Below are positions 110-26,788 of a DNA stretch of 28,476 nucleotides, one piece after another (position 1 is the stretch's first letter; every line of letters starts with the position of its first letter). A model generated the notes under the pieces. It saw only the letters and a program-made list of their open reading frames with translations. It was not told where the DNA came from and searched no databases. The translations under genes and the position numbers were made by a program. Source of the DNA: Baffinella frigidus (Eukaryota; Cryptophyceae; Cryptomonadales; Baffinellaceae); assembly GCA_026770585.1 (NCBI GenBank), contig MU646577.1:469076-497551 (forward strand). Reading direction: 5' to 3'.

Positions 110-3100
110 CGAGGGAGGTGACGAAGAGCTGGATCTTGAGCGCGGTCTCGATGTCCTCCTCCTTGACCACCGGCATGAGGTCCGTGGCGATGAAGGAGAC
201 GAGGAGGCACACGATGATCCCGGCCGAGGAGATGAACAGCGGGAACACGAGGGCAGACCACCTGGTTTACGGGTTAGGGTTTAAGGTTTAGGGATGATGT
301 GTTAGGAGGTGAGGGTGTAGGGTTTAGGGTTTAGGGTTTAGGGTATAGGGTTTAGGGTTTAGAGTTGAGGGTATAGGGTGTAGGCTGGGGGCTTAGCGTT
401 GAGGGTTCAGGGGGCATGAATTCAGGGGTTTGGGGTTTATGGTTGGAAACCCTAAACCCTAAACCCTAAACCCTAAACCATGAAACCCTAAACCCTAAAC
501 CCTAAACCCAAAAAAACGGAGGACTAATGGTTTAAGATGGATCAAGGTTCAGGAGGGGTTGGGGTGTAGGGTGTAGGGTGTAGGGTGTAAGTTTTGGGGT
601 GTAGGGTGTAGGGTTTAGGGTTTGGTATAGTACCCGCCCTCCTCGATTGCGACCGAGGCAGAACCGATGAGCATGGCGGCGCATGACGCCTCGCCTCTCT
701 CTCCCTGCAACCTACACCTACACCCTACACCCCTGCACCCCTACACCCCTACACCCCTACACCCCTACACCCCTACACCCTAAGCCCTGCATCCTACACT
801 CTACACCCCAAACCCTAAGCCCTACACCCTACCCCTCAAACTACCCGATGAGGTTTGGGGGCTAGGGCGTAGGGCTTAGGGTAAAAACATTAGGTTCTAG
901 AGCGAAAACATGAGGGTGTAGGGGTTACCCGCCCTCCTCGATGGCAATCGAGGCAGAACCGATGAGCATGGCGGCGCAGGACGCCTCACCGAACGACCCG
1001 AAGAGGTCCGAACCCTGTTTCGCGTTTCGGGTTTAGGGTTGAAGGTTGAAGGTTTAAGGTCTCTGGTGTCTGGTTTCTGGTTTAAAGTTTCGAGGGTTTA
1101 GGGTTTGGTTGAGAAGGGTTTAGGGTATAAAAGAGTTCAGGGTTTAGGGATTAGGGATTAGGGTTTAGGGTTTAGGGTTTAGGGTGTACTCTTTGGGGTT
1201 TAGGGAGTAGAGTTTGGGGGGTGGGGTTTTGGGGGGGTGGTTTAGGGTTTAGGGTTTAGGGTTTAGGGTTTAGGGTTTAGGGTTTAGGGACCCTCCCCCC
1301 ACCTCCACAGAGTTGAGGGTTTGGGGTTTACCATGCCCGCGACGTCGCCGACGGTGTCCCCGACGTTATCAGCGACAACACCCGGGTTGTAGGGCGAGGC
1401 TACTCTCGGAAGTCTTATGGTTGATGGTTGATGGTTGATGGTTGATGGTTTCGAAGGGTTTAGGATATGGAAGGGGTGGTGTTGAGAAGGGAGCAGGGGT
1501 TAGGATACATACGGGGTTGGGGTTTAGAACTTTGAGGGTTGAGAAGTGAGAGGGTCGAGAAGTTAGAGGGGTTGGGTTGGTGGGTAGGGGTTAGGGGTCG
1601 CACCATGCCAGCGACGTCGCCAACGTTGTCCCCGACGTTATCGGCGATAACACCCGGGTTGTAGGGCGAATCCTCGTCGAGCTTCTTGCCGTCGCCCACG
1701 CCGATCACCTGATATAATAGATGGACAGGCTGTTTAGTACCAGGAAAGGCGCATACAATAGATGTATTGACTCGTAGAATAGATGTATGGGATATACAAC
1801 CACTTTTATAGCCCGGTTTGGGTTAGGGACGCGACGACGCCCGGGTTGTAGGGCGAGTCATCGTCGAGCTTCTTGCCGTCGCCCACGCCGATCACCTGAG
1901 GTTACGTACGAGGATCGCGATATCGGGTTGTGAGGCCCCGCTCCAAAGTTGACGGATTTGTACCACGAACGCAGCATGTCAACTTAGGAATAGTCCCTGA
2001 TCACACCCGGGTTGTAGGGAGAGTCCGTGTCGAGTTTTTTGCCGTCGCCCACACCGATCGCCTGAGGTTACGTTGGGTTTAGGCAACCCTACAGCTCACC
2101 CTTTATCTGCGACGGTTAACCCTAAACCCTAATAATAGACCTTGAACGCACCTTAAGCCTCAACCCTGAAACAACCCTTACCATACCTTGCCAGAGAACC
2201 GTCGACAATGAATAAACCTTCACCGTGCCTTGCCAGAGAAAACCCTGAATAAACCGTTAACACACCTTGCCAGAAAAACCTCAACCCTGAATACATCCTA
2301 AACCCTGAATAAACCGTAAACCATTTTAAATTAACCGTAAACCCTGAGTCGACGCACCTTGCCGGAGAGGTCAGCGCCGACGTCGGCCGCCTTGGTGAAG
2401 ATGCCGCCGCCCACGCGCCCGAACCTAGCGGAGCGTTTCGGGGTTAGAACATAGAGAGTGGGGCGCCTGTTCAGGGTTTCGTGTTGTTTCGTGTTTCGTG
2501 TGAGGATTACGAAAATCGGGATTCGGGTGTCGGGGTTATATATAACATGGAAAGGGAGGAGCCCGTTTCGGGTTTCGGGTTCCCGGGTGAGAACATGGCG
2601 ATCGGGCTCGCTTCAGGGTTTCGAATTTAGAGTTTAGGGTTTCGGGTTTCGGGATGAGCACATGGCGATGGCGGAGCCGCCGAGCCCGTAGCCAGCGAGG
2701 CACTCAAAGAGCTCCTTGTAGTTGACGGTGCGGGTCTCCCCTTCCATCTGGGGGAGGGGGGGGTAAGGGTTTAGGGTTTGGGGTTTAGGGTGGAGGGTGG
2801 AGGGTGGAGGGTGTAGGGTTTAGGGTGTAGGGTGTAGGGTGTAGGGTGTGGGGTTTGGGGTGTGGGTTCAGGGTTCAGGGTTCAGGGTTCAGGGTTCAGG
2901 GTTTAGGGTGTCGGGCGAAGGGTTCAGGGTTTAGGGTGCGGGGTGTATACCTTGGTGAAGTACTCGCGGAAGACGAGAGCGAGCATGTACAGGATCATCA
3001 TCGAGATCGCCACCAGCGAGTAGCCCATGACCCCACCTGGTGTGGGGTTTAGGGTTGAGCCCCCCACACCGCGGGCTACGAAGGGATTTCGTGAACTACC

Positions 3101-6100
3101 CATACGTGAACACTCCATAGGACCCTACGGTAGGCCATATGTAGGGGCATAGGGTTGTTCCTAGGGTCATCCTAACCGAAACCTGGTTTCGGTTGATAAC
3201 CGAAACCTGGCTTCGGTTGATACCCACCCAGGTTTCCCTTGGTAGCCCGCTGTGTGGTCGGGGTAAATTGGGGCCTGGCGAACCGACCAGAATCATTCAC
3301 TTGGAGCACCGGCGCGGCGGTGCTCAACCCCGAACCCTACCCGCTCTACCAAACGCACCCCCGCACTAAAGTTGCAACCCCCCCACTAAAGTTGCAGCCC
3401 AGGGGGTACCGGCGCGGAAGGCGGTGTTGAAGGAGCCCTTCCAGCCCTCGGCGCCGTCCTTCTTCGCCATCACCGCCGTGCGCGCGTTCGAGTACACCGC
3501 CACCTGGTTTCGCGAATTGTGTGTAAGCCGGCAGTTAGATACGTATATCCTACTGTCAGTACGTGTGGGTGTATACGTATGTACATACGTATACACGCAG
3601 TATATGTGTATACATACACGCAGTATACGTGTATACATACATATATACGAGTGTGTGAGATACGAGTGTGTGAGATGGCCAGCCCTCGGCGCCGTCCTTC
3701 TTCGCCATCACGGCCGTGCGCGCGTTCGAGTACACCGCCACTTGGTTTCGCGAATTGTGTGTAAGCCGGCAGTTACATACGTATATTCCACTATTGGTAC
3801 GTGTGCGTGTATACGTATATACATACATATACACGCAGTATACGTGTATACGTGTATACATACATATAAGAGTGTGGGGGCATATACGAGTATGTGAGAT
3901 GACCAGCCCTCGGCGCCGGGAGTACGCGGCAACCTGCGCCATTTCGTGGATATTGTGTGAGATGGCGTTTAAGAGTATGTGAGATGACCCCAACTATTTA
4001 GGATGGGATGGTGGGGGGGCGAAGGTTGGAAGGGTGTAGGGTTTAGGGATGGCGGAGGATGGTATCTGTGTTTGGGAGATTTAGTGTGGAACACCCACAT
4101 AGTTAAGGTCCTCGTATACACTCTGAACTGGAGTTGAGGCAGGGGGCGGGACCATCATGCCGATGTAGCCAGAGAGGATCGAGGTGAGGCCGCCCACCAC
4201 GAACGAGAGGCAGGTGAGCGCGCCTGGATTCAGGGGGTCGGAGATTAGGTTTCATGCTTTGCCCCATGTTGCCGAAAACCAACGGGGACCAACGGGGACG
4301 TTCCCGTTCGTGATATCCAGGGGTGAAGGTTGCAGGGTGCAAAGGGTGCAGGGCGATACTAATGCCCCCCTTCCACGCACATGCTACCGATGGCCCACTT
4401 CCTCAAACGTGCTATGTCCCGGGTTCAGGGGTGCAGTGCTATTCATGGTTGAGGTATTGAGGGTTGAGGGGTGCGGGGCGAGACCGATGTCCCACTTCCA
4501 GACAGCTTCGCCGTTCTCGGTGGTGTGCGAGACGAGCACCAGCACGATCGCGCCTGGTTTAGGGTTGGGGTTTAAGGTTAGGGTTTAGAGTTTAGGGTTT
4601 AGGGTCGAGGGTTGGGGTTTAGGGTGTAGGGCAAGGGTTTAGGGTTTATGGTTGGGGTTTAGGGTCTAGGGTCTCGCGCCAGCGCCGAGGAGGGGGGGGG
4701 GGTCTGAAGCGCTTTATATATAGAGCGCGAGCGGGGTTTGGGGTTTAGGGGTTGAGATTTGGGATTCAGGGTGCAGAATGCAGGGTGCAGGGTTGAGGGG
4801 GTACCGAAGACAACGATGAAGACGAAGCAGAACTGGTACTCGGCCCAGAGGAACGACTTCGCCCCCTCGCGGATCGTCTCGTAGATAACCTGTTCGCGAG
4901 AGAGAGTTTAGGGGGTAGGGTTTAGGGTTGGGTTTGCCTGGTTTCTCTGAGAGTTTCAGGGGAAGGGTTTAGGGTGACAGTTTACAAACGCGATGCCATT
5001 GCAGGTGTTCGCAACCCTACACCCTTCAACCTTCACCCTTCACCCTCCACCCTCCACCCTTCAACCTCCTTCACCCTTCACCCTACACCCTACACCCTAC
5101 ACCCTACACCCCACACCCTACACCCTCAACCCGAAACGCACTTGAGCTTCTCGTCAGAGGCCTTGGTCGACGCGACCAGCTTCAGCCAGTTGACTAAAAC
5201 ATGGCCACTTTCGTTGGTCAAACTTACCCAGTTGACTAAAATACGGCAACTTTCGTCGGCTAAAGTTGTCGCACCTTGAGCTCCTCGTCAGAGGCCTTGG
5301 TCGATGCGACCAGCTTCTCGTCCTCCTGTTTGGGGTTTGGGGTTTGGGGTTTAGGGTTTAGGCTTTAGGGTTTCGGGTTTCGGGTTTCGGGTTTAGAGTT
5401 CAGGGTTTAGGGTCAAACCCTCCTCGGGTTTAGGGTTGGGGGTTGAGAGTTAAACCCCCCAACCAGGCTGTCACGTTTCCTCCGGATATTCTGCAGGGAA
5501 CGTGACCATTTCCAGTGCACTTACAGGCCGTGGCACCACAAAACATGTACACAAAGTACCCCTCTGGCACACAGGACCCACAACCGCCACGCAAGAGGCT
5601 TTGGGCCGAGCTCCCTGTGGAGGTGATACCCGATATCGGATATTTGACCCTTCAAAATGGCGAATTGCGGGGGAATTCCGTGATTTCTCTCGCAAAGTGG
5701 CCGCTCCGTCGAACGAATAGTAAAAAGACTCTGTGCCGGCCGCTCGCGAATAGCCTCGTGCGTAGCGTGACAGAGCTTGCGCGCCACTGGGTGTGCATCA
5801 AACTCTAAACCCTACACCACGTGCGCTACGCCCCGAACCCTACACCACGGCTCCCTACGCAGCTAGCCGCGAGAGACACCCCAGCCGTGCCACCACGATA
5901 GAGAGTCCCAACGGATGACAAGATAGGGTTGTTTCTCGTACGAAGCCTGTTCTCTTTTGGGATCTTCCTGGCATAAAACGTGTTCGTGTTGCGAAGGGTC
6001 GCATTTGGATTGTGGAAGACTCACACTCACCAGTCCTTAGTGTCTCAGCATTCCGCCTGTCGCAATCCCCTTGGTGTGTAGTGGAGAGGCTCGCTCCGGT

Positions 6101-6890: not shown

Positions 6891-7017
6891 TTTCGCGGAG
6901 ATCACAAATAGAGTTATATATTGTTTTAAACTACAACGTTTCGGGGACGCGATTCTCCCTTTAAAACGACTTGTGAAGACCACAAACGTCGTTAGGGCGA
7001 CGTAACCCCGAGCACAG
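6891..7017. promoter_or_regulatory. Compact divergent promoter
   Basis: Only 127 bp separate the pyrophosphatase start codon (minus) from the proposed start of the unrecognised gene (plus). The stretch has a TATATA at about 6915-6920 and a TTTTAAA nearby, an AT-rich island in GC-rich surroundings. Both genes would share it if both starts are right. Function is inferred from position alone. Confidence 0.45.
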
Positions 7018-10000
7018 ATGGACGAGGCGCGGTTCCGTCCGGGGCGCAAGGACGGGTTCGATACTGAGGAGGATGAGGAGGACGACATGTCGCCGTCCCT
7101 GCGTCCGGTGGGCGCCGTCTGCCTCCCGGAGGGTCCGGTCCCTCCTCGCCGTGGACCCCTTGGGGTCCACGGCCAGCAACTTGGGGTCCACGGCGAGCAA
7201 GTGGTGGGCACTTTGCATCTGACTCGCTCGGGGCTGGGCAGGTGAGGGAGCAGATGCACGCGAGTGAAGGAGAGGATGAGGAGTATCAGGGTGAGGCGGG
7301 GAGTTCGAGCGAGAGTGACAACGACAGCGACAGCTCTGAGGCCGCGGTGCGCCCCGCCGAAAAGTCGTGGGTTGTGTGGGTGCAGAGAGGGTAGGGTATT
7401 GGAGACAAGGCTCAGGATCACATTCGAGGGTGATGGGGTGTGGGAGCTGGGCGGGGCGGGCTAACCGTCCACACTGGTCTGTGACTTTCACGCTGTGGCC
7501 TGAACGGCAAACTTGGGTGGAGGGGAGGGGGCGCAGGAGCCGGAGAGAGACAGAGACAGAGAGGAAGAGAGAGACAGAAAGAAAGAAAGCGAGAGCGAAA
7601 GAGAGAAATACAGAGAGACATGGAGAGATAGAAAAAGACAGAGAGCGACAGAGACAGAGACAAAGAGACAGAGACAGAGAGGGAAAGGAAGAAAGGAAGG
7701 AAGTGGGGGAGAGGAAGGAAGGGAGAGACGACGAAACCCCAAACCCCACCTAACCCGGAACCCAGAATCCAAAACCCGAAACCCGAATCCCTAATCCATC
7801 AACCCTAAAACCTGAATGAGGTGCGGGATTTCAAGAAGCGGTACGCCGACGAACCGCTACACCAGAAACCCTAAACCCTAAACCCTAAACTTCAAACCCT
7901 AAATCAGGTGCGGGAGTTCAAAAAGAGGTACGACGACGTGCGGGCGGCGGTCGCGTCCGATCACGCGGGAGGGTGCCTAGCCCAGACCCTCGAAACCCGT
8001 TAGGCCCCATACAACAATCCCTCTCAACACCCTCTCAACTTCCAGTGCAGAGGACGGTCGTGTTAGATCACGCGGGGGGGTACCTACCCCCTCTCTATAT
8101 CTCGATCAGTCTATTTGGTCTCACTAATCTGCTTCCTCCGGGCTCTTTCCCGCACTAACGTTGACGGGTTTCTACAACACACCCAGCATGTCACCTTGAA
8201 AATGGTCCGTGAGCCAACCCGCGTGAGGCAGAGCTAGATCTCCTGAAAACGAAACCCGAAAGCGGTACGACGACGTGCGGGCCGCGGTCGCGTCAGATCA
8301 CGCGGGAGGGTTCCTGACCCCTGAACCCTCGAAACCCCCACATGTTCTCCCTAAACCCTGCACAAGGAACCAGAGTGTCGAGGGTTGAGAGAACACTTCA
8401 ACACACTCTCAACTCCAAACCCGAATTCCGAAACCCGAAACCCTAAAGCGCTGCGACGACGCGCGGTCGCGTCAGATCCCGCGGGGGGGTACGACCCTCT
8501 AATCCCCAACCCCCAAACCGTGACCCCAACCCCCAAACCCCGAACCCCAAACCCCGAACCGTAGCCCCTAACCAAGGTACCGCGCGCTTCACACAGGTAC
8601 CGCGCGTGGCTCATGATAGAAGGGCGTGGCTCAGTCCTCGACCGCATAGAGTACCAAAATCCGCAAACACCGAACCTAAACCCGTGACCGCTGGTATTGA
8701 TACCGCGTCTGGCTTGTAGGTACCCAGTGCAGAGGGCGTCGGAGCACACGAACCGTAGCCCCTAACCAAGGCGCCGCGCCTAACACAGGTACCGCGCGTG
8801 GCTCGTGCGCCGGATGATGGAGTGACGCGGCTCAGTCCTCGACCTCATTGAGTACCCGACACCGCAAAAATCAAACACCGAACCTAAACCCGTAACCGCC
8901 GGTATTGATACCGCGTCTGGCGTGTAGGTACCGTGCGGTGCCTCGAATTGTGGCGCCGCAAAAAGCACGAGAAGGATCACACTTGCGAGGTAAGTCGGAG
9001 CACGCGATCCGTAGACCCTAACCAAGGTACCGCGCCTCACACAGGTACCGTGCGTGGCTCGTGCGGCGGATGATGGAAGGCAGGGGGTCGGTCCTCGACC
9101 GGATAGAGTACCAGACGCCGTCCTGCTTCATGTCCTCTGACAATCCCGCGGTGCGCCCTCTCTCTCCCATCATCTTGCGGCCCCCTCTGTACCAACATCC
9201 TGGCCCCCCCCTTGAAGTGCTTCAGAGATAATGCATGCGGGGGTTCCGTAGGGGACACACACCAGAAGCGGTGTATGGCTCCTGAACCTGAATCGGGTTC
9301 AGGAGATGGCTCCTGAACCTGAATCGGGTTCACGATATGGCTCCTGGGCCTGAACCGGGTTCAGGAGCTCCTGAACCCGGCCCCAGCAGCGGCTCTTCAG
9401 ACCACCAGCCCTCGGAGGTTGCTCAAATTGTGGTCTGGAGTTTGAGCCATTTTACCCTGCATCTACCCCAGATCTGGGGTAGATGTCCATCTATTCGACC
9501 AATTTGTACCAGTGGGTAAATTTTCCAGAAAAGCTCCAGACCACAATTTGAGCAACCTCCGAGAGCTGGTGGGAACTAAGCACCGACCCTGCTCGGTTGA
9601 TGCATCGCTTCCTGCGAACATAACTAAGACGAATACTAGACTGTGCGGATAGTAACTAAACCCTTAACACCTCTCTTGCTCTAAGGGATGCTCTGCAGAG
9701 AACTAAAAACTGTTAGTTGTAACCCTGCCCTCAACCACACAGTGGGCTACGAAGGGATTTTCGGACACTGAGTGCCCGAGTTTCCGTTACCTTATCCGTA
9801 GGAACCCCCCTATGCCCCTACGGGTTGCCTACCGTAGGGTCCTAGGTCTTATCGCTTAGGGCTTATTCAAAATCCCGTCGAAGTCCGCTGTGTGGTTTGG
9901 TCATCGCGTCCTGCGAACGTTGAAACACCTCCCTCTGTCGATCGCAGGGACATCAAAACACCCCCTTATCGCAAATTTTGGATCTAGGAGCGTGGACCAG

Positions 10001-13000: not shown

Positions 13001-15767
13001 ATTCCCCCCTCAACAATATCCCCCAGCATTCTCCCCATGCTGTCGCTGTGCGCATGCCCCCCAACCTGAGTCCCCCTCTTCTCAAAACAATCAGACGACG
13101 GAGAGCATGGTTCTGCAGGAGGAGCTCAATCCGGTAACAGGTATTTTTCTTTTAAAAGCTGGCAATGAAAATTACTACACACCTGGTCACATCAGAAGCA
13201 ATTATGTAGTAATTATCGTGCAGATTTTTTGAAAGGACAATACTTGTTCCCGGATGAAGCTGCCAGAGGACTACACCCCCAAACCCTGCCTAACCCCCAA
13301 CCCTAAACCCTAAACCCTTGAATGCAGCGGATCAAGTCGCTGCTCGCGCTGGACCGGCAGCCGCCCTCGGTGCACCGCTGCACCCTCGACCGCACCCCGG
13401 TACAGAGAGATTTAAGGGTTTGAGTTGAGGAGTTTAGTGGGTAGGGTGTGGGGTGTGGGGTGTAGGGCGCCGCTAGCCAGCGTCGGTGCACCGCTGCACC
13501 CTCGACCGCACCCCGGTACAGAGAGACTCAGGGTTTCATGTGTGGGGAATGGGGAGATTTAGGGTTTGGGGCTTAGGGGATAGGTGTTAGGGGTTATGAT
13601 TCAAGGGTGGGGGGTGAGGGGGTGAGTTGAGGAGTTTAGTACCCTCGACCGCACCCCGGTACAGAGAGATTTAGGGTTTCTTCTTCTTCTTCTTCTTCTT
13701 TATTACCCTCACATGGTGTGCGCCATGGGGACCTCGAGAGAGGCCCCCCAGCCTTTTGAAAAGTGATCAACTTAATACTACTCTAATACCGCGATGTGGC
13801 GGGCGGGCTTGACTCCTTTTCATACGGAAAATAGGGTTTCATGTGCGGGGAACAGGGAGATTTAGGGTTTGGGGCTTAGGGGATAGGTGTTAGGGGTTAT
13901 GATTCAAGGGTGCGGGGTGAGGGGGTGAGTTGAGGAGTTTAGTGGGTAGGGTTTGGGGTGTGGGGTGTAGGGCGCCGCTAGCCAGCGTCGGTGCACCGCT
14001 GCACCCTCGACCGCACCCCGGTACTGGGAGAAGGGTTTCATGTTTGGGGTTTATGGGGTTGGGATTCAGGGGTGAGGGTTGGGGGTGAGGGGTGAGGGGC
14101 TTAGGGCACCGCTGTCCGTTGGTGCACCGCTGCACCCCAGTACACCCCCCCCTACAGGGAAATTTGGGTTTGGAAGGTTTGGGGTTTAGGGGTTAGGGGT
14201 GAGGGGTTAGGTGTTATCAGGGGTTAGCGGTTAGTGGTTTTCAGGGTTCAGGGGTTGGGGGTTGGGGAGTGGGGTTTGGGGTTGAGGGCGCCGGCTGCCG
14301 GCTTGAGTGCGGCGGATGACATCGCTGCTCGCGGAGGATCGCTAGCCACCCTCGGTGCACCGCTGCACCCTCGACCCCACCCCGGTACATCTCCCTCAGG
14401 GTTGGGGGTTCGGGTTTATCAGGGTTTGGGGGTGAGGGGTGCGGGTTGAGGGTTGAAGGTTGAAAGTTTGGGGGTCAGGGGCTAGGGGTTGTCGGGGTTT
14501 AGGGGTGAGGGTTTGGGGTGGGGTGTTTGGGGTTCAGGGCGTCGCCAGCCGCCTTCCGTGCACCCTCGACCGCACCCCGATACAGAGAGGAGGTGTTTGG
14601 GGCTCGGGGGTTAGGGTTGGGTGTCAGGTGTCAGGGGTTGGGTGATCTCAGGGGTTAGGGGTTAGGGGTCGGGGGTTAGGGTGTCTCCGTCTGTCGGGCA
14701 CCGGGGTCCGGTGGAGGGTGCAGCGTTGCACCGAACCTTAAAATCCTAAATCCTAAGCCCTAACCAATACACCCGAAACCCCAAAGCCATACCCATAAAC
14801 CATAAACCATAAACCATAAACCCTCAACCCTAAACCCTAAACCCTAACCCCCGAACCCTAAACCCTAATCCCTAATCCCTAATCTCTAACCCCTAACCCC
14901 CCCAAAACCTTCACCCTAAACCCCAAACCCCGAACCCTAAACCCCAACCGCAGGCCCTGAAAGAGTTCATGGGCAAAATCGGGCGGTGTACCTAAACCAT
15001 AACCTCCCAACCATAAACCATAAACCATAAACCATAAACCATAGACCATAAACCATAAACCATAAACCAGCAAGTCTAAATTGGGTGGGACAATAAACCA
15101 GCACGTCTAAATTGGGTGGGACAATAAACTGCAGGCGCTGAAAGAATTCATGGGCAAGATCGGGCGGGGCACCGCGCACTACGACCCCCTTCGCGATGTC
15201 TTCACCGTCGACCAGGTGGACCCCCGAAACCCGAAACACGAAAATCCAAATATGAAACATGAAGTACGAAACACGAAACACGAAACACGAAACACGAAAA
15301 TCCAAACCTAAAACATCAAGTACGGAACACGAAACACGAAACACGAAACACGAAGCACGTACGCGAAACACCGAAACACGAAACACGAAATACGAATCCT
15401 GCCACACGGAACCATCAGTGTCAAGCCCATCGATGGATGGACGGGACCTCACGAACCGTTGCGTAACTGAAAATGCTGATAATGCACGCGTCCATATACA
15501 GGAAACCATCAGCCTCAAGCCGGTGCGAATGGAAGGGACCTCCCCAACCGTCGCGCCTCCGCACTTACTGACAAATGCTGATATCAAATGCTGACAAATG
15601 CTGACAAATGCTGACAAATGCTGACAAATGCTGACAACGCACGCGTCCCTTTACAGGAAACCATCAGCATCAAGCCCGTGCCCATGGACGGGAAACTGCG
15701 AACCGTCGAGGCCCCGCACTCGTCCGTGGGCGCCAACGCGGGCGTCAACGTCATCCGCCGTCGCTGA
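7018..15767 (+). CDS. Unrecognised multi-exon gene with acidic Ser-rich N-terminus
   Basis: I do not recognise the product. Proposed exons: 7018-7137, 7242-7379, 7908-7972, 9045-9150, 11302-11388, 13095-13133, 13328-13399, 15135-15215, 15657-15767. All have GT/AG borders and consistent phase, giving 272 residues if no exon hides in the N gap. The N-terminus is acidic (GFDTEEDEEDD, EGEDEEYQGE, SSSESDNDSDSSE), then come charged, probably helical segments (VREFKKRYDDVRAAVASDHA, YRAWLVRRMMEGRGSVLDRI) and a basic end (VNVIRRR). No signal peptide or membrane segment is visible. Acidic Ser stretches are common in nuclear proteins, but that is only a hint. Exons from 7908 onward are supported by their neighbouring echoes, which recognise the same borders. 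Exon 1, the 39-nt exon at 13095 and the start codon are least certain. Confidence 0.6.
7148..7194. repeat. 12-bp-arm hairpin with a repeated right arm
   Basis: GCCGTGGACCCC (7148-7159) is followed after TT by its exact reverse complement (7162-7173), and the right arm TTGGGGTCCACGGC recurs at 7181-7194. It lies in the proposed first intron of the unrecognised gene. Confidence 0.7.
7541..7732 (+). repeat. Polypurine GA/CAGAGA tract
   Basis: About 190 nt of nearly pure purine on the plus strand (GAGAGACAGAGA and AAAGAAAG units) in the second intron of the unrecognised gene. It explains the long low-complexity Arg/Glu and Ser/Leu frames that cross it; these are not genes. Confidence 0.85.
7821..7850 (+). 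pseudogene. Echo of exon 3 of the unrecognised gene (5' part)
   Basis: Reads VRDFKKRYAD after a GAG acceptor-like junction. It matches the start of the exon at 7908-7972 (VREFKKRYDD), lies upstream of it and lacks the 3' half and donor. Confidence 0.75.
8065..8488 (+). pseudogene. Three echoes of exon 3 of the unrecognised gene (3' parts with donor)
   Basis: Copies at 8065-8080 (DHAGG end only), 8260-8309 (KRYDDVRAAVASDHAGG) and 8446-8488 (decayed, with deletions) all end at a GT donor and lack an acceptor. All are downstream of the intact exon at 7908-7972. Confidence 0.8.
8574..8940 (+). pseudogene. Two echoes of exon 4 of the unrecognised gene (5' part with acceptor)
   Basis: Around 8574-8670 and 8768-8865, copies of the first half of the exon at 9045-9150 follow an ACACAG acceptor (YRAWL...SVLD.IEY). 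They degrade at the point matching the middle of the exon, then run into a shared flank (AAACACCGAACCTAAACCCG; GGTATTGATACCGCGTCTGG). The two units are about 194 bp apart, and short acceptor fragments (CCAAGGTACCGCGC) add a finer layer. All are upstream of the intact exon. Confidence 0.8.
9278..9377. repeat. Tandem ~30-bp palindromic units
   Basis: Three units of the form ATGGCTCCTGAACCTGAATC followed by GGGTTCAGGAG. Each can fold on itself (CTCCTGAACC against GGGTTCAGGAG). They lie in the fourth intron of the unrecognised gene. Confidence 0.75.
9402..9573. mobile_element. Foldback element with 30-bp perfect arms
   Basis: CTCGGAGGTTGCTCAAATTG... (9411-9440) is the exact reverse complement of 9534-9563, and the match extends outward with one mismatch to about 9402 and 9573. 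Between the arms is a perfect 26-bp palindrome (9460-9485, centred on AGATCT). There is no ORF. It looks like a small MITE or foldback transposon; no second copy was found in the window. Confidence 0.65.
9733..9897. mobile_element. Foldback (MITE-like) element, family C, second copy
   Basis: Termini AACCACACAGTGGGCTACGA and, from the right end reversed, AACCACACAGCGGACTTCGA. The 165-bp element carries TGCCTACCGTAGGGTCCTAG inside. It is the same family as 3063-3258 but diverged, and lies in the fourth intron of the unrecognised gene. Confidence 0.7.
10240..10760. repeat. Simple GGTTCTTGGTGCTT repeat and complex direct/inverted repeats
   Basis: 10240-10345 is a GGTTCGTGGTTCTTGGTGCT simple repeat, with a shorter one at 10551-10580. 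A unit containing GGGGTTGCCGAATGGAGTCA occurs at 10381 and 10597 on the plus strand and, reverse-complemented, near 10685-10735. CCCCAAACAATGA-type blocks are interspersed. I see no exon in this stretch (9151-11103). Confidence 0.65.
11104..11271 (+). pseudogene. Two echoes of exon 5 of the unrecognised gene (5' part with acceptor)
   Basis: ASKAFWAPSNPYIASSYDK (11104) and ESEAFWALSNPYIVSSCDK (11213) each follow an AG acceptor and match the start of the exon at 11302-11388 (ESEAFWAPSN). Both then continue with a shared segment (PYI.SS.DK) absent from the intact exon. They are upstream and have no donor. Confidence 0.75.
11570..11992 (+). pseudogene. Three echoes of exon 5 of the unrecognised gene (3' part)
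   Basis: Copies at 11570-11646, 11729-11790 and 11940-11992 repeat the HARLESTAP...ESRMLSAQ half, with intervening intron containing GAGAGAGATTTAGTGTRAAG. Donors are decayed (CACAGTTTAAA, CGCAGTTGAAA). The next unit's intron runs straight into the N gap. Confidence 0.8.
11847..11893. repeat. Hairpin
   Basis: GATTCGTAC-TGA-GGTCGTCGG faces CCGACGACC-TGT-GGTACGAATC with an AATT-like loop. This gives about 18 paired bases in an imperfect 47-bp foldback. No ORF. Confidence 0.65.
12128..12871. other. Assembly gap (744 N)
   Basis: Run of N. The left flank ends inside the repeated unit that carries the exon-5 echoes (GAGAGAGATTTAGTGTGAAG), so the missing sequence may be further copies. It could also hide an exon of the unrecognised gene. 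Confidence 0.99.
13470..14590 (+). pseudogene. Array of echoes of the RIKSLLALDRQ exon (3' parts with donor)
   Basis: The exon at 13328-13399 encodes RIKSLLALDRQPPSVHRCTL followed by DRTP and a GTACAG donor. Copies follow at about 13470, 13640, 13975, 14106, 14290 and 14530. All contain part of TGCACCCTCGACCGCACCCC, and most keep the GTACAG donor. The copy at 14310-14390 is nearly full length but carries a stop and missense changes. Intron between copies is G-rich TTTAGGG-like repeat. A TTCTTC microsatellite sits at 13678-13700. Confidence 0.85.
14697..14733 (-). pseudogene. Inverted echo of the RIKSLLALDRQ exon
   Basis: GGTGGAGGGTGCAGCGTTGC matches the reverse complement of the exon's CACCGCTGCACCCTCGACC end. 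It is the only echo in opposite orientation. Just to its right the telomere-like repeat switches from GGGTTTA-type to CCCTAAA-type on the plus strand. Confidence 0.6.
14954..14989 (+). pseudogene. Echo of the ALKEFMGKIGRG exon (5' part with acceptor)
   Basis: GCAG acceptor followed by ALKEFMGKIGR, then break. It matches the start of the exon at 15135-15215 and is upstream of it. Between them are CATAAAC tandem repeats and a 38-bp direct repeat containing AGTCTAAATTGGGTGGGACA. Confidence 0.85.
15230..15395. repeat. CGAAACACGAAACA tandem repeat
   Basis: Degenerate 8-9 bp units (ACACGAAAC) fill most of the last intron's start, with two blocks repeating AAAATCCAAA and CATGAAGTACG. Confidence 0.8.
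15404..15560 (+). pseudogene. Two echoes of the last exon of the unrecognised gene (5' part)
   Basis: 15404-15470 and 15480-15560 carry copies of the start of the exon at 15657 (ACCATCAGTGTCAAGCCC; ACAG acceptor then ETISLKPVRMEGT). The second also copies the upstream flank ATGCACGCGTCC. Both are upstream of the intact exon and neither holds the stop. Confidence 0.8.
15568..15638. repeat. CTGACAAATG 10-bp tandem repeat
   Basis: Six or so copies of CTGACAAATG just before the last exon's acceptor. The repeat also flanks the preceding echo as GAAAATGCTGATAATGC. Confidence 0.9.
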
Positions 15768-15784: not shown

Positions 15785-15929
15785 CGTTTGGACACGACCT
15801 GTGGGACGTGCGGACACGACCCAGGACGTGAGAACACGGGCGCTAACGTCGTCCGCGGTCGCTGAGGCCTCGCGTGTGGACGTGACACAGGACGTGGGTA
15901 CACACGACTTAGGACGTGTGGACACGACA
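15785..15929 (+). repeat. 3' echo of the last exon plus GGACGTGTGGACACGAC repeats
   Basis: 15838-15875 copies the coding end and stop of the unrecognised gene with its 3' flank (GCTAACGTCGTCCGCGGTCG CTGAGGCC against the intact GTCAACGTCATCCGCCGTCGCTGAAGCC). It is embedded in GGACACGAC / GGACGTGTGGACAC repeats that resume at 16033-16060 beyond an inserted element. Confidence 0.75.
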
Positions 15930-17946: not shown

Positions 17947-18243
17947 ATGTCGGCAGCGTTGGCCGTGGCGATCCAGACTCTGTCGCTCCAGACCAGCTGC
18001 GCCCACTGCGGGAAGGAGGTTTCTTCGCACCGCTGCTCGCGCTGCAGGCAAGCCTGGTCCTGCGGGGCTGCATGCCAGACCGCGGATTGGAAGAAGCACA
18101 AGAAGACGTGCGCGCCGCCGATGTCTCTGGACGACGTTCGTGCGAAGGTGCTGGCGGCAGGCGTCGCTCAAGACTGGCGGGAGGTTCTCAAGTGGGAGGG
18201 GCGCATCGATGAGCTGATGGAGGGGCTTCAAGATGACACCTGA
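17947..18243 (+). CDS. Short MYND zinc-finger protein
   Basis: 98-residue ORF. A complete MYND-type zinc finger occupies residues 18-55, with C18, C21, C30, C33, C39, C43, H51 and C55 in the usual spacing. MYND fingers are protein-interaction modules. After the finger comes a conserved tail, DWREVLKWEGRIDELMEG, that also occurs in the pseudogene at 19105-20290. The ORF stops right after LQDDT, where sequence related to the right end of element D begins (CATCAGGCCCCCC). The gene therefore looks 3'-truncated relative to longer MYND/TPR relatives; the stop may have been created by that junction. No intron is needed. The start is the only ATG before the finger in this frame. The finger is sure; whether it is expressed is not. 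Confidence 0.75.
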   Translation: MSAALAVAIQTLSLQTSCAHCGKEVSSHRCSRCRQAWSCGAACQTADWKKHKKTCAPPMSLDDVRAKVLAAGVAQDWREVLKWEGRIDELMEGLQDDT

Positions 18244-20290: not shown

Positions 20291-20303
20291 CTTCCACCAA
20301 GGC

Positions 20304-20412
20304 TATCTCTTAAGTGACCAGTAGGCTCATACGCCCTACCGTAGGGCCCTAGGACCTGCCTAGCTAGGACCTCTTGGCCGTCAAATTTGACGGCATGACC
20401 ACTTAAGGGATA
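20304..20412. mobile_element. MITE-like element, family A (copy 4)
   Basis: TATCTCTTAAGTGACC and its partner GACCACTTAAGGGATA bound 109 bp. The core is GCCCTACCGTAGGGCCCTAG. It lies at the end of the recognisable pseudogene. Confidence 0.75.
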
Positions 20413-20439
20413 GCATCTGTCACAGGTTCCAGCTGCTCC

Positions 20440-20810: not shown

Positions 20811-20814
20811 ACCT

Positions 20815-21737
20815 CTACACCCACTTGACCGGGGTCTGCTTCGAGGCGAACTTCTCGTAGTTGGAGGAGACCTGGTTTGTGGTTTGTGGTTGAGGGTTTG
20901 GGGTTTGGGGGTTGGGGATTAGGAATCAGGGTTTGGGGTTGGGGTGTTGGGGATTAGGGATTGGGTATTAGTGATTAGGGATTAGGGTTTGGGGTTTGGG
21001 GTTTGGGGTTTGGGGTTTGGGGTTTGGGGTTTGGGGTTTGGAGTTTCAGGTGTCGGGTTTCAGATTTAGGGTTTGGGATTTGGGGTTTGGGGTTTAGGGT
21101 TTGGGGTTCAGTTTGTAATGTTTCAACCTGCTCCCAGTTGACGACGTTCCAGAAGGCCGAGATGTACTCGGGGCGGCGGTTCTGGTACCTGGGGTTTGGG
21201 ATTTAGGGTTGAGGGTTTCGTGTTCAGCCACCCAGGATTGTTGGGGGGGGTATTTAATTTAATTAGGATTCATATGTAAAATTACCTATTCCATACTAAT
21301 TTCTCCTATGATCTATCCTATGCAACAGTTGACGACGTTCCAGAACGCGGAAATGTACTCCGGGCGCCAGTTCTGGTACCTGCGCTTGGGGTTTGGGGTT
21401 TGGGGTTTGGGGTTTGGGGTTTGGGGTTTGTGGTTTGGGTTTATGGTTTATGGTTTATGGTTTATGGTTTACGGCTTATAGTTCAGGGTTTAGGGTTTGA
21501 GGTTTACAGTTCAGGGTGCTGGTTCCTGTCAAGACACGAGTAAAAACCCCTTCAGGGATAGGGTTTAAGACTATTATTTAGGGGTTAGAGTTGAGGGGGG
21601 GGTGTAGAATTTCGGTTTGGGGTTGGGGCACGTCGAGACCGAGGAACCTCCAACTCACCCCCTCCACTCTCTACTCTCCAACCTTCACCCTCAACCACGT
21701 TCAGAGAGAGAGAGACACAGAGAAAGAGAGAGTACTT

Positions 21738-21773
<36 letters not shown>

Positions 21774-24700
21774 GAGGGAGAGAGGGAGAGGGGGCGGGGG
21801 GGGGGGGAGCCTACTTGAGGTAGTAAGCGTGCTCCCAGTCATCGAGGACGAGGAAGGGGATCATCGCAGCGCCCTCGCACCTCTCCATAAGGGGGTTGTC
21901 CATGTATTTTCGTGGTACTAGGGAGATCGGTCCATTTATGTTTGTGGTACCAGAGGGACGGTCCATCTATGTTCGTGGTACTAATCAAGAATTGCTCGGA
22001 ACAGAGACATCTTATTAACCTCAGGGATTAGGGTGTAGGGTGTGGGGATTGATACTTGAGGTAGTAGGCGTGCTCCCACACGTCGAGGCCGAGGAAGGGG
22101 ATCATCGCCGCGCCCTCGCACCCCCCCATCAGGGGGCTGTCTATCTATTTTCGTGGTACTGAGGAGATCGGTCCATTTATTTTCGTGGTACAAAGAGATC
22201 GGTCCATTTATGTTCGTGGTAGTAAGGAAGGGGTGCATACTTGAGGTAGTAGGCGTGCTCCCACACGTCGAGGCCGAGGAAGGGGATCATCGCCGCGCCC
22301 TCGCACCCCTCCATCAGGGGGTTGTCCTGCGGTTCGGGGGTTGGGGTTTAGGGTTTGGGGATCAGGGGTGAGGGGGATCAGGGGTGAAATCGCCTTTTTG
22401 TAACTTCCTTGATTATTACCTTTCTTGTGAGCCATTGCGCCGGAATCCGGCCTACTCGCAGTACCAATCAAGGAATCGCAACAGGCTGCGTTCGGGAGAC
22501 CTGGTTGGGAGTAGAAGAGACGACAAGCTTGCCCTCCGGGGAGACCCCAAGCCACGCCCACCCGGACCCAAACCGCTTCACCCTACACCCTAGACCCTAG
22601 ACCCTAGACCCTGGACCCTAGACCCTAGAGCCTACACTTTACATCCTACACCCTGAACTCAAACGTAAAAACGTACAAACGTACACCGTAAAGGGTAAAG
22701 GGTAAAGGGTATACCTGGTTGGGAGTAGACGAGACGACGAGCTTGCCCTCCGGGGACACCCCAAGCCACGCCCACCCGGACCCAAACCGCTTCACCCTAG
22801 ACCCTAGACCCTAGACCCTAGACCCTAGACCCTAGACCCTACACTTTACATCCTACACCCTGAACTCAAACGTAAAAACGTACAAACGTACACACGTACA
22901 CCGTCAAGCGTCGAGCGTAAAGGGTATACCTGGTTGGGAGTAGACGAGACGACGAGCTTGCCCTCCGGAGAGACGCCCAGCCACGCCCACCCGGACCCGA
23001 ACCGCTTCGCAGCCGCACCCTCGAACTCAGTCTGATGTAGGGCGTAAGGTTGAGAACTCAGCCGTTTCCAGGGTTAAGGATTTAGGGGCAGCCACGCCCA
23101 CCAGGACCCGCTTCGCCGCCGCACCCTCCAACACAACCTGATGTGTGGGGAGTAGGGGTTAGAAACCTTTTCAGGGGTTAGAAACCTAGACCCTCAACGT
23201 AACCCTAAACCAGGACGCCCAGCCACGCCCACCCGGACCCGAACCGTTCCCGGACCCGAACCGTTTCGCAGCAGCCCCATCGAACTCAGCCCCGTCGAAC
23301 TTTCGGGTTCAGGGTTTAGGGAAGGAAAAATCAACCGACATCCGGACAAGAGCATGTCTGCGTACTGAGAAATGGTTAATTACAACCCTGCTGCATTCTG
23401 CTGCACACTCCCCCCCAAACAAATCCAAAACCCGAAACCCGATCTGCGAATCCCGAAACCGCACCTTCGTCTTGTCCATGGAGCCGAAGGAGTCATCGAT
23501 CACCTTAGCGAGCAACGCGAAACCCGGTCAAAACGTCGGTTGCTAACATGTCTTTGTACCGAGCAATTATTAATTTGTACCCAGCAATTGTTAATTAGTA
23601 CTACGAACATAGGTGGACCGCACCTTCATCTTGTCCATGGAGCCGAAAGAGTCATCAATCGCCTTGGCGAGCGAGGCCGACGGCGCGCCACCCTGTTTCG
23701 AGTGAGGGTTCAGTGTTCAGGGCGTCGGGTTTAGGGTTTAGGGTTTGGGGGTTAGGGTTTCGGGTTTCGGGTATCAGGTTTCGGGTTTAGGACTTGGGGG
23801 TGTGGGTTTGGGTTTGGGGTTTTCGGTTTTCGTGTTTCGTGTTTCGGGTTTGCGAAGCAGACGGCGTGCACACTAGAGCGTTTAGGGTTTAGGGTTTAGG
23901 GGTTAGGGGGGTGTGCGCCGACCTTGCAAGCGGGCGCGAGGCTGGAGAAGAAGAGGCCGTGGTTGTAGAACCCGCCCCCGTTGTTGGAACCGTTCGCCAG
24001 TAACGTGACCAATCTTGCCCGGAAATCCGGGCAAGAGTGGCGTCGGTCACTTGAAAGTGGCAGGTGTCAGTTCAAACCCCTAAAACTCTGAACCCCTTAC
24101 AACTCTAAAACCCACCCCCCTAAAATGGCGCTGACCTTGCCAGCGGGCGCGAGGCTGGAGAAGAAGAGGCCGTGGTTGTAGAACCCGCCCCCGTTGTTGC
24201 GCAGCGCGGCACCATCCTTGATCGCAGAAGTCTGTTTGGGGTTCACGGTTTGGGGTTTAGGGATTGGGGCGGGGTTGTCATTTATTTAAATTAAATTGGG
24301 TTATTTAAATTAAATCTGTTTCCGTGGTTGTAGCCCCCACTGTTGCGCAGCGCGGCCCCGTCCTTGATGGTCAATTTTAAACTCTTGTCACTGCGACAGG
24401 AGTTTCGGGTTCAGGGTTTGTCAATTTTAAACACCCATAGATTTTAACATAGCACAAAACCTACCCGTAAGATTGCCAACGTTATGTAAATTAGATCTGT
24501 TTCCATGGATGTATGCGATTCTGTGGGTGTAGAACCCGCCCATATTGTTGCGAACCACTCGAGGCTGGAAGATGGAGTATTTTAAATGTGGGGTTGTTAA
24601 ATTTAGTACCAGTCACGGGCAGGTTTGGTCACGTTGCTGGGGGAATTCCCCCAGCAACGTGACCAAACGCCCCTATTTGTATGAAAATTAGGAAGAGGGG

Positions 24701-26788
24701 GAGGGACCTGGATCGCGGCGAGGTCCTTGGCGGGCTTGCCATCCATCGCCTTGTTCAGGTTCGTCAGGTACGCCTGATCGAGGAAGGGGGGGGGGTCAGC
24801 TTAAGCCCTAAACTCTGCAACCTGCACCCTGCACCCTCCGTCCAACGTCGCCGTGTGCCCTCCATCGCCTTGTTCAGGTTCGTGAGGTACGCCTGCAGAG
24901 AAGAAGGGCGGTGTCACCTTCTTCCACCGCAACCATTCCAGTTCAGTCAGAGCTGCTTTCGCAGTCACCAGGGCAAGGCTGTCGTCCTTCGTTGCACCCT
25001 GCACCCGCCATCGCCTTGTTCAGGTTCGTGAGGTACGCCCGCAGGAGTGGGGTGTGGTGTGGGTGCGGTTTGAGAATGTTTCGCCGCCACCAAGAACAAC
25101 GTTCGCCGTCACCAAGAAGATTGTATGGGTCGTCAAGCTTTCTTCTCTTGACCCTGCACCCTGCACCCTGCACCCTCCATCGCCTTGTTCAGGTTCGGCA
25201 GGTACGCCTACAGAGGGTTCGTTTCAGCTTCTTTCGTTCCGTTTCAGCTTCTTCCGCCGCCACTAGGTCAATGCAGTCTTCCTTCGCTTCACTCTCCACC
25301 CTCCACCCTCCACCCTGCGCCCTGGATCCTGGGCCCTGGGCCCTGGACCCTGGACCCTCCCGCAGAGGCTCCGGGTGAGCAGGTCCGCCCAGAGCCCATG
25401 TACCAGCCTGCAGTGCAGTGCTTTTTCCTGTCTGTGGAACAAACAAATCATGAATCCTAAATCCCAAACCCTGAACCCCAAACCCCGAACCCTAAACCGA
25501 AAACCGAAACCCCCAACCAAAAGCCGTAACCCCCAAAACCTAGACACCAAACACCAAACCCTTACCACTAAACTCAACATGCTTAATCCTAACCCCCCAC
25601 AAAACTCACGTTGAAGTGCTTGTCGTGGTGGAACTTCATCGTCGCCTGGTTCCACACAGGACCACTGAACCCAAACATCAGGGGGGCACCAACCCGGCGA
25701 CCCTAAACACTAAACCCTGAACCCTAAACCCAACACCCTAACCTCGCTCACGTTGAAGTGCTTGTCGTGGTGATGGTCCCTCTAAACCTTAAACCCAAAA
25801 CCCTGAACTACAATCCCTAAATCCTAAACCACAAACCCCCAAGAAACCCACGTTGAAGTGCTTGTCGTGGTGGAACTTCATCGTCGCCTGGTTTCGGGTT
25901 TGAGTTTTAGGGTTTGGTGTTGAGGGTTTGGGGTTTAGGGTTCAGGGTTTAGGGTTTAGGGTTTAAGGTGTAGGGTGTACTCTTTGGGGTTTAGGGAGTA
26001 GAGTTTGGGGTGTGGGGTTTTGGGGGGGGTGGTTTAGGGTCTACGGTTTAGGGTTTAGGGTTTAGGGTTTAGGGTTTAGGGTTTAGGGTTTAGGGTTTAA
26101 GGTGCAGGGTTTGGGGTTGGGGGTTTAGGGTTTAGGGTTTAGGGTTTCGGGGTTGGACCTCGTCGATGTGGGGCTCGAGCGCGGCGTAGTCGTAGGGGAG
26201 GGGCGGGAGGGAGAACATGCCGCCTGAAATAGGGTTTGGGGTTTGGGAGGTGCGAGAACCCCTGGAACGATCTCGGTAAGCCTGCGATTACTGTACTCGA
26301 AAATATTCCCAGGGCAGAGTGAGCACCGAGAACATCCCATCCGGGTCAGGGTTTGGGGGTTTGGGTTTGGGGTCCAGGGTCCCCGCGACTGTTGACTGGT
26401 CGAAGGTTTCTCTGGTACTAACCCTGCCCGGCTTACTCACCCCCCCGGTACAAAACCACCCCGGTTCAGTCAACCGTCGCGGGCCCCCGGCGCAGACCTT
26501 CCAGCTCTGCCTCACTCGAGCTAGCAAGACTATTCCAAAGTTGACAAGCTGGGCGTGCAGTGCAAATCCGTCAACTTTCGAGCGGGAAAGATCCTGGGCT
26601 CACCAAAACTGGTGAGCCGAAATAGACAGAGACTGGTCTAGGCACTTGCATACATCGGCGCTCCCAACTGGGAGCTGCTTGCAGGAGCGAAAAAATGTTT
26701 GGTGAAATAATGGAGAACCTTCGGCCGGCGCCACGGCCGGGAAGAGCGTCGACGCGGCGAGCGCCGCGGAGAAGATGCCGGAGAACAT
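20815..26788 (-). CDS. SOD: Superoxide dismutase, Mn-type signature, 10 exons, complete
   Basis: Converts superoxide to oxygen and hydrogen peroxide. Exons on the minus strand: 26788-26719, 26223-26159, 25887-25852, 24773-24708, 24231-24136, 23692-23624, 23031-22930, 22326-22241, 21188-21128, 20871-20815. Every junction is GT/AG and every phase closes, giving 235 residues and a TAG stop. Metal ligands by family alignment are H51 (FHHDKHF), H99 ([11 protein letters not shown]), D188 and H192 (LDVWEHAYY). The catalytic-shell Y59 and Q168 (PNQDNP) are present; Q at that place and GGG before the second ligand point to Mn rather than Fe. The last motif reads [17 protein letters not shown]. The N-terminus ([20 protein letters not shown]) looks like a signal peptide or transit leader; the compartment is uncertain. 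GC boxes lie 120-150 bp upstream. A second complete copy of the H51 exon is at 25610-25645. Confidence 0.95.
21328..21379 (-). pseudogene. Echo of SOD exon 9 (5' part with acceptor)
   Basis: GCAG acceptor then [17 protein letters not shown], ending before WEQ and the donor. It is upstream of the intact exon at 21128-21188 in transcript order. Confidence 0.85.
21709..21808 (+). repeat. Polypurine GAGAGA tract
   Basis: About 100 nt of GA-rich purine followed by a G run, immediately before an echo of SOD exon 8. Confidence 0.85.
21815..22141 (-). pseudogene. Two full-length but acceptor-damaged echoes of SOD exon 8
   Basis: 21815-21900 ([20 protein letters not shown] then DWEHAYYL) and 22056-22141 ([20 protein letters not shown]) both keep a GT donor. 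In the first the AG acceptor is gone; in the second it is displaced by one base, which would shift frame. The intact exon is 22241-22326, and both copies are downstream of it in transcript order. Both carry the D and H metal-ligand codons. Confidence 0.85.
21901..22231. repeat. ~34-bp tandem repeat GGTCCATTTATGTTCGTGGT
   Basis: Units of GATCGGTCCATTTATGTTCG TGGTACTA-type sequence fill 21901-21985 and 22142-22231, just 5' of the echoes of SOD exon 8. An inverted single unit occurs at 23595-23618 in another SOD intron. Confidence 0.75.
22501..22793 (-). pseudogene. Two echoes of SOD exon 7 (3' part with donor), 214-bp period
   Basis: 22501-22579 and 22715-22793 both encode [20 protein letters not shown] and onward to TPNQ with a GT donor, but lack the TEFEGAAA start. 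With the intact exon at 22930-23031 they form a three-unit array with 214-215 bp spacing. The interunit intron is CCCTAGA and ACGTACAAACGTAC repeats. Confidence 0.9.
23090..23286 (-). pseudogene. Two echoes of SOD exon 7 (5' part)
   Basis: 23090-23137 keeps the CATCAG acceptor and [10 protein letters not shown] before decaying. 23219-23286 reads [14 protein letters not shown] with an internal 18-bp duplication (AACGGTTCGGGTCCGGG). Both lie upstream of the intact exon and lack the donor. Confidence 0.8.
23465..23512 (-). pseudogene. Echo of SOD exon 6 (3' part with donor)
   Basis: [16 protein letters not shown] and GT donor. It copies the end of the exon at 23624-23692 and is downstream of it in transcript order. 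Confidence 0.85.
23933..23985 (-). pseudogene. Echo of SOD exon 5 (3' part with donor)
   Basis: [20 protein letters not shown] then K and a GT donor, lacking [11 protein letters not shown]. It is downstream of the intact exon at 24136-24231 and includes the ligand His codon. Confidence 0.85.
24325..24552 (-). pseudogene. Two decayed echoes of SOD exon 5 (internal parts)
   Basis: 24325-24370 ([12 protein letters not shown]) and 24518-24552 ([10 protein letters not shown]) are diverged fragments upstream of the intact exon. Between them are TTATTTAAATTAAAT direct repeats (24280-24316). Confidence 0.65.
24623..24668. repeat. 46-bp perfect palindrome
   Basis: GTTTGGTCACGTTGCTGGGGGAA is followed directly by its exact reverse complement, with no spacer and AATT at the centre. 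GGTCACGTT also ends other hairpins in the window (24000-24052; 20440-20508; GTCACGTTTCC at 5470). It may be a collapsed foldback element. Confidence 0.85.
24862..25207 (-). pseudogene. Three echoes of SOD exon 4 (5' part)
   Basis: [10 protein letters not shown] copies at 24862-24892, 25008-25037 and 25177-25207, each followed in transcript order by CCCTGCACCC-type repeats. The first and third keep an AG acceptor; the second has lost it. All are upstream of the intact exon at 24708-24773. Spacing is about 145-170 bp. Confidence 0.85.
25610..25645 (-). CDS. SOD: Second complete copy of SOD exon 3 (ligand exon)
   Basis: Encodes [12 protein letters not shown] with a CCAG acceptor and GTGAGT donor, identical in sequence to the exon at 25852-25887. 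It is 36 nt, so using both copies would keep frame and repeat 12 residues including a metal ligand; using either one gives a normal protein. A truncated third copy (25756-25780) lies between. Which copy is spliced cannot be told from the sequence; this one actually has the stronger donor. Confidence 0.6.
25756..25780 (-). pseudogene. Echo of SOD exon 3 (3' part with donor)
   Basis: HHDKHFN then GTGAGC donor; the acceptor and ATMKF are replaced. It lies between the two complete copies. Confidence 0.8.
25973..26100. repeat. TTTAGGG array and block shared with a pyrophosphatase intron
   Basis: 25973-26039 matches 1182-1247 almost exactly, and 26047-26100 is about eight TTTAGGG units. It lies in the SOD intron between exons 2 and 3. 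Confidence 0.85.
26536..26578. repeat. Small foldback AAAGTTGAC...GTCAACTTT
   Basis: 9-bp inverted ends around a 25-bp loop in SOD intron 1. A similar arrangement (AAAGTTGACGG...ATGTCAACTT) is at 1945-1985, and a decayed one at 8158-8200. The rest of intron 1 (26224-26718) shows no other clear feature. Confidence 0.5.

Follow-up and report, generated by a model that had tools for sequence, protein, structure and literature searches.

Dead copies of exon edges in introns of Baffinella frigidus: local tandem duplications that may be relics of aborted homology-guided repair

The stretch of DNA analyzed (the window) comprises 28,476 nucleotides of the cryptophyte Baffinella frigidus (assembly GCA_026770585.1, contig MU646577.1, positions 469,076 to 497,551) and carries three genes whose introns contain partial copies, or echoes, of the adjoining exons. 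The minus strand encodes an H+-PPase (exons P1-P13, from 6890 to 110; best solved relative 4a01) and an Fe/Mn-SOD (exons S2-S10, from 26221 to 20815; best solved relative 2rcv). Exon edges were set by protein homology and AG/GT sites, and AG..GT flanks the exon edges in both models. Read side by side, P4-P13 differ from a public protein of Baffinella frigidus only in two splice choices, the match showing 95% identity with 61% of the query covered. One public Baffinella protein reads through into the intron after P10 and omits the start of P11. The third gene lies on the plus strand, and no Pfam match was obtained from the two pieces of it that were searched; its intact exons are our own reading, with four exons chosen because they echo, and a 744-nt run of N is found in this region at 12128-12871.

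Each exon plus 60 nt of flank was searched with blastn against 2 kb on each side, and copies were counted at E<=1e-3 when they held no fewer than 20 non-simple exon nt. The counted set consisted of 44 exons, 22 from the H+-PPase and SOD genes of the window and 22 from kinesin and TCP-1 genes elsewhere in the genome searched (382 Mb, 1,364 contigs). Local copies were found for 25 of these 44 exons, with 59 copies in total, all of them in direct orientation; no inverted copies were detected at the counting threshold among the 44 exons. Copies carrying the 5' part of the exon were always located upstream (29 of 29) and copies carrying the 3' part always downstream (20 of 20), so that the side rule holds for all 49 edge-bearing partial copies, or for 51 of 51 when the P3 and S9 copies are counted as partial. 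Five internal pieces and three truly full-length copies fall outside the rule, the latter being among five copies that reach both exon edges within 10 nt. The copies contain 21-88 exon nt and lie at offsets of 79-913 nt (median 233; 52 of 59 at 500 nt or less), with up to seven copies of a single exon and, for example in the exons K506a and K123b, regularly spaced series. This confirms the echo observation and extends it beyond the window. The preliminary description had reported about 18 exons with around 40 copies in the three genes and no clear exception to the side rule; the same picture is obtained at a looser threshold, the strict one giving 15 exons and 31 copies plus short P10 echoes. 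The rule itself is close to a tautology, because a tandem duplication that starts inside an exon and ends in the adjoining intron, or the reverse, preserves an intact exon only when the partial copy comes to lie on the outer side. It identifies tandem duplication and argues against dispersed or inverted insertion, and no further law is needed.

Within the window, 11 of the 22 H+-PPase and SOD exons have 22 copies (nine 5'-part upstream, seven 3'-part downstream, five both-edge and one internal S5 piece upstream). In the H+-PPase gene, the intact exon P12 (929..1014) has a 3' partial copy downstream (631..695), P11 (1604..1708) has two 5' partial copies upstream (1831..1899 and 1999..2065) and a 3' partial copy downstream (1317..1397), P7 (3410..3503) has a 5' partial copy with part of the intron upstream (3679..3801), and P3 (5275..5325) has a downstream 3' copy that lacks 8 nt at its 5' end (5137..5183). 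Short downstream echoes of the P10 3' tail with its donor, below the counting threshold, are found at 2162..2293. In the SOD gene, also on the minus strand, an upstream 5' copy of S9 (21128..21188) without 7 nt at the 3' end is located at 21326..21421, and two full-length copies of S8 (22241..22326) are located downstream at 22052..22141 and 21804..21901. The exon S7 (22930..23031) is accompanied upstream by two 5' partial copies (23214..23289 and 23089..23164) and downstream by two 3' partial copies, one of which includes part of the intron (22661..22793; the other at 22499..22579), and S6 (23624..23691) by a 3' partial copy downstream (23458..23513). Upstream of S5 (24136..24216) there are a 5' partial copy (24322..24368) and the internal piece (24523..24552), and downstream a 3' partial copy that is 97% identical and whose intron side is unalignable (23915..23986). 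S4 (24708..24773) has three 5' partial copies upstream (24856..24911, 25008..25039 and 25173..25209). The S3 exon taken as intact (25852..25887) is followed downstream by a 3' partial copy (25700..25772) and a full-length copy (25550..25651), and the S3 in use could be either this full-length copy or the exon taken as intact. In the full-length copies (once for S3, twice for S8), the tandem duplication has its two ends at the exon edge or beyond it.

In the third gene the four exons have nine copies, five 5'-part upstream and four 3'-part downstream, all on the plus strand. G2x (7908..7972), read as an intact exon like G2y and G2a, has a 5' partial copy upstream (7774..7851) and three 3' partial copies downstream (8055-8090, 8259-8337 and 8463-8490, spanning 8055..8490), G2y (9045..9150) has two 5' partial copies upstream (8555-8656 and 8738-8864, spanning 8555..8864), and G2a (15135..15215) has one (14946..14992). 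The last exon, G2b (15657..15767), has a 5' partial copy upstream (15467..15565) and a 3' partial copy downstream, past the stop codon (15833..15882).

Outside the window, the family searches turned up 45 matches for kinesin and 10 for TCP-1, of which the DNA was examined for 21 and 10, respectively (a search with PF00122 gave one match, which was left unused). Nine of these 31 matches stand outside the count, namely K506c and K112b, which are copies themselves, and seven with unclear edges. Copies were found for 14 of the 22 kinesin and TCP-1 exons counted, and their 37 copies comprise 20 5'-part copies upstream, 13 3'-part copies downstream, three internal pieces upstream and one downstream. 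The kinesin loci C506 and C112 were chosen partly for their overlapping profile matches, a selection that favors echoes; if both are left out, copies accompany 22 of 41 exons (23 5'-part copies upstream, 14 3'-part copies downstream, zero exceptions). The seven unclear-edge matches contain no direct copies of at least 30 nt, K62a having two 25-nt matches at 84%, and three of them (K138a, K138b and T031) show short inverted matches, 22-33 nt in length. With these seven added, copies are present in 25 of 51. As a chance control, exons were compared with foreign 4-kb targets, which gave 11 matches in 220 tries; by locus names, seven of them are attributed to loci overlapping the exon's own and four to other kinesin loci.

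The copies are dead, since 21 of their 26 indels shift the reading frame. Their differences from the intact exons at codon positions 1, 2 and 3 amount to 40, 48 and 202 over about 1,000 sites each (3.9, 4.7 and 20%), with 192 silent and 95 replacement changes where random placement predicts 76 and 212, and with no stops among the 287 classified changes where about 6 are predicted. The ratio of replacement to silent differences per site (pN/pS) is 0.18 (exon-bootstrap 95% confidence interval 0.13-0.25), with values of 0.20 in the window, 0.18 outside it, 0.16 (0.09-0.27) with one copy per exon and 0.19 without C506 and C112. We would expect a ratio of about 0.5 between a copy dead from birth and a working exon, because the dead copy changes at all sites and its exon at silent sites only, and a ratio of about 1 between two dead copies; the copy-versus-copy value is 0.26, from pairs that are non-independent. 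As the observed ratio is far below that expected from death alone, the copies seem to have been silently diverged from today's exon when they died, the silent difference already present at that time being estimated as 0.15 (0.235 - 2 x 0.043). Different ages of the events, which the preliminary description had read from the divergence, do not account for this bias, which is unexpected for copies dead from birth. Third-position changes are balanced in direction (76 from GC to AT, 69 from AT to GC), which resembles the comparison of two working sequences. These sequence patterns hint that the copies may stem from functional versions of the gene that differed slightly from the present one.

Paralogues of SOD (L044, on C218) and of H+-PPase (L025, on C490) were used as outgroups, copies of one exon being counted separately. 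On the copy side, position 3 had 16 changes and positions 1 and 2 together had 11; the corresponding numbers for the intact side were 6 and 0, with 3 changes undecided. The codon bias is compatible with a diverged allele of the gene concerned as the source, or with such an allele having later replaced the exon. The paralogues themselves are rejected as donors for the tested SOD and P7 copies, which group with their own gene: copy and intact exon both differ from the paralogue at 25 and 47 sites, and the copy alone matches the paralogue at 6 sites (copies again counted separately). Base-composition bias is unsupported as the cause of the third-position excess, with 81 copy-side events from G/C and 44 from A/T and a GC content of 0.59, 0.46 and 0.88 by codon position. 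In comparison with the window genes, introns are absent from these paralogues at S5|S6, P6|P7 and, by joined match, P3|P4, and intron gain or loss seems to be fast in this lineage. The paralogous P10 (L025:2265-2327) is 97% identical to the window P10 over 63 nt, the other C490 exons showing 72-75% (P7, P8), 88% (part of P6) and 90% (P9), and this similarity may reflect conversion between paralogues. At the site where the window S7 is continuous, the C218 paralogue has an intron made almost wholly of CCCTAAA-like repeats (L044, about 600-1065), possibly derived from a telomere-like insert.

The location of the duplication ends has been examined with a search for local direct repeats in the H+-PPase and SOD genes (at least 24 unmasked bases per arm). 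Exons or their copies, from 11 exons, are involved in 29 of the 33 repeats, and the remaining four are one further P10 echo and three heptamer-like repeats. No clear intron-only duplication was found in these two genes, with about 5.4 kb of unmasked, echo-free intron searchable (2,158 + 3,250 = 5,408 nt; the mask of the repeat search is somewhat stricter). Breakpoints are therefore unevenly distributed in these genes. Such a bias toward exons would be expected if the pairing step depended on homology found in exons only. In addition, homology stops 8 nt or less past the splice site in 23 of the 51 partial copies. In the S5 3' copy, which is 97% identical over 72 nt, the 149 nt between copy and exon match nothing beyond the copy. 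The serial local tandem duplication first proposed agrees with the direct orientation, the short offsets, the serial copies and the side rule, but these 23 copies do not fit the simple duplication of one uninterrupted stretch of a single chromosome, because the duplicated block holds no alignable intron past 8 nt. Rapid rearrangement of introns, by which their homology would have been eroded, was rejected as the main cause, given that dead exon pieces, which are also intron, stay alignable.

Aligned copy blocks make up 24% of the intron bases in SOD and 8% in H+-PPase and thus do lengthen the introns, in line with the proposal that introns grow by re-duplication of exon edges. Splice dinucleotides, and with them putative decoy splice sites as anticipated earlier, are often retained: among copies extending as far as the site, 17 of 31 have the AG and 17 of 24 the GT (gaps ignored). 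Telomere-like heptamers are abundant in the introns (110-6890 and 20815-26221), mostly in one orientation, with 30 (SOD) and 43 (H+-PPase) sense-strand CCCTAAA, 8 TTTAGGG in each and well under one expected, and several acceptors are the end of a heptamer array.

We consider that the echoes may be dead relics of local tandem duplications that arose when homology-guided repair of a break, often with a diverged allele as template, was aborted and the ends were joined instead; a probability of about 0.45 is given to this reading. A break would occur inside or beside an exon, and one broken end would pair with the same exon on the homologous chromosome, be extended through the remaining exon into the adjoining intron, and then be end-joined to the other broken end rather than annealed. 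The template would thereby restore an intact exon, and a partial exon would be left stranded on its outer side, with the 5' part upstream if the right end is extended and the 3' part downstream if it is the left end. With a template allele that shares exons and has different introns, pairing could begin only in exons, the stranded part would retain the resident silent sites, and the gap would be intron of the other allele; repeated rounds would enlarge the introns. Tandem geometry, direct orientation, deadness, codon-biased divergence and the lack of a clear intron-only duplication in two genes are established, whereas breaks and end joining as the route, and a template that was often a diverged allele sharing exons and not introns, are what we infer. 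Allele-templated aborted repair predicts the codon bias, the exon preference and the absent intron homology. More tentatively, homologues in this alga may share exons and hardly any intron, so that repair would find a partner only in exons and often abort at their edges, and introns would collect dead edges of different alleles and grow by failed inter-allelic repair.

A comparable process is documented in helq-1 mutants of Caenorhabditis elegans, in which end joining of aborted intermediates of synthesis-dependent strand annealing generates tandem duplications in direct orientation, ranging in size from about 100 bp to 10 kb with a median of about 1 kb (PMC8654963). Extension on a homologous template followed by end joining would yield the geometry observed here. 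The nematode duplications arise in repair-deficient backgrounds with the sister chromatid as usual template and are not described as bound to exons (PMC8654963); here, the median offset is 233 nt, the duplications are tied to exons in two genes, and the template appears to be often a diverged copy.

Several points weigh against the proposal of aborted allelic repair. No diverged allele was found in the visible genome, where exon P1 matches only itself; 14 of 20 sampled 10-kb pieces are wholly N, so that this absence proves little, and heptamer repeats overwhelmed an allele search made with the complete SOD region. The two homologues found (on C218 and C490) behave as paralogues and not as donors. 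Moreover, 28 of the 51 partial copies have more than 8 nt of alignable intron and require no allele, and silent divergence is weakly related to loss of intron homology (Spearman -0.21, p 0.13). The exon preference rests on two genes, heptamer arrays mask part of their introns, and five local direct repeats occur between genes, at about 15.9-17.8 kb. One inverted pair is also present in this region, between the third gene and SOD, and the direct and inverted repeats there are probably copies of small dispersed elements. The C. elegans duplications are, in addition, larger than those described here.

Among the alternatives, plain serial tandem duplication on one chromosome, by slippage or unequal sister exchange with later decay, is a serious possibility although an unlikely one. 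It fits the geometry, the regularly spaced series of K506a and K123b and the long alignable intron carried by several copies (P7, one S7 3' copy, K506a and K123b), and the conserved intact exon would keep exon parts recognizable for longer. Against it, pN/pS is 0.18 and not about 0.5, intron parts of equal age should align as the dead exon pieces do and yet 23 of the 51 partial copies have none past 8 nt, and the two genes lack clear intron-only duplications. A one-chromosome echo in a hyperdiverse sexual population, identical at birth and brought alongside another exon allele later by crossing-over or conversion, is improbable on the whole, and it is a further point against aborted repair, since a swap of the exon beside an old echo would give the same codon bias. 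This alternative explains the bias, the balanced third-position direction, the changes on both branches and the loss of intron homology beside the exon, and leaves the absence of intron-only duplications in two genes unexplained.

Introners and transposon-made introns occur in algae too, and small introner-like elements, or elements resembling miniature inverted-repeat transposable elements, could insert at exon edges with a target-site duplication of 20-90 nt, the echo being the duplicated target and the gap the element. Introners, like the echoes, change eukaryotic introns on a large scale, and dispersed elements are present in the gaps here: dispersed repeats occupy 33% of the unmasked bases between an exon and its nearest copy versus 15% in the control, and 30 nt or more are found in 16 of 35 gaps versus 11 of 60 control windows. 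A dispersed hairpin element with the core AAGTTGAC..GTCAACTT (40 nt in 10 of 11 cases) lies in introns and between genes, at 1900-1939, 20280-20319 and 26492-26531 on the flipped strand of the window and also in the loci L016, L023, L028, L032, L036, L039 and L043. A hairpin element with long target duplications was rejected, a direct repeat spanning the element in 5 of 11 cases, with none in the other 6, versus 85 of 300 random positions. Moreover, the echoes have no set repeat length, with 21-88 exon nt in the repeats and gaps that vary in length and repeat content, and insertion should leave long direct repeats within introns as well. The flanking repeats known for some introner families measure 3-9 bp (PMC9860276). 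Mobile elements are a very improbable origin of the echoes.

Diverged haplotypes strung together in a short-read assembly are a highly improbable source of the copies. Short reads, together with 20 nt at the end of one K506a copy (L036, C506:55500-58500, about 979-998 on the flipped strand) that we take to be an Illumina adapter, would favor such an artefact. The published assembly of Baffinella CCMP2293, from which the genome analyzed presumably derives in whole or in part, is described as Illumina-only and built with AllPaths-LG (534.5 Mb, 10,880 scaffolds; PMC9756366). Against an artefact, there are zero N runs between the listed exons and copies, an exon may have up to seven copies, and frame-shifts and amino-acid changes distinguish the copies from working haplotypes.

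Introns could also be born when a coding segment containing AGGT is duplicated in tandem, with exon pieces left in the new intron. This has the same geometry and agrees with the different intron positions of the window genes and their paralogues, but it is the least credible alternative, as many copies continue across the splice site of their exon into intron sequence rather than into the neighboring exon (by eye, in the one intron read, the P3|P4 echo continues into the P3 donor instead of the beginning of P4).

Exon copies adjoining an exon are also known from tandem exon duplication and mutually exclusive exons. The echoes differ from that class, since 3 of the 59 copies are truly full length and most indels are frame-shifting. 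Intron gain by tandem genomic duplication shares with them a local coding duplication that ends inside an intron; as outlined in PMC3443670, the duplicated AGGT forms both splice sites of a new intron, whereas here existing introns lengthen and hold dead splice-site copies. Direct repeats near splice sites have likewise been read as traces of insertion or repair at exon-intron borders, and these repeats, located on or close to both borders of an intron, have lengths of 4-30 bp with a mean of 11.4 (PMC11782384), whereas here single exon edges are copied, often serially. No description of exon-edge echoes or of the side rule was found among the matches listed (titles and abstract starts, with subscription literature mostly outside the coverage).

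Two further open frames lie in the window. A MYND zinc-finger frame is located at 17948-18243, between the third gene and SOD. A minus-strand frame that runs from 27403 downward contains MRVSFLALACLPVASAFF and has a weak match to DUF5560, below the cut-off; it resembles the plastid-targeting start, with signal plus ASAF-type motif, of proteins in complex-plastid algae.

If the pattern is genome-wide, about half of the exons of this alga would have dead copies of their edges, many with usable-looking splice sites, which would account for part of the intron length and would mislead gene prediction, as may be compared with the public protein at P10/P11. Through the codon-biased divergence of these copies, the introns would serve as an archive in which former alleles are preserved, and failed homologous repair in a protist would have left a trace that can be counted.

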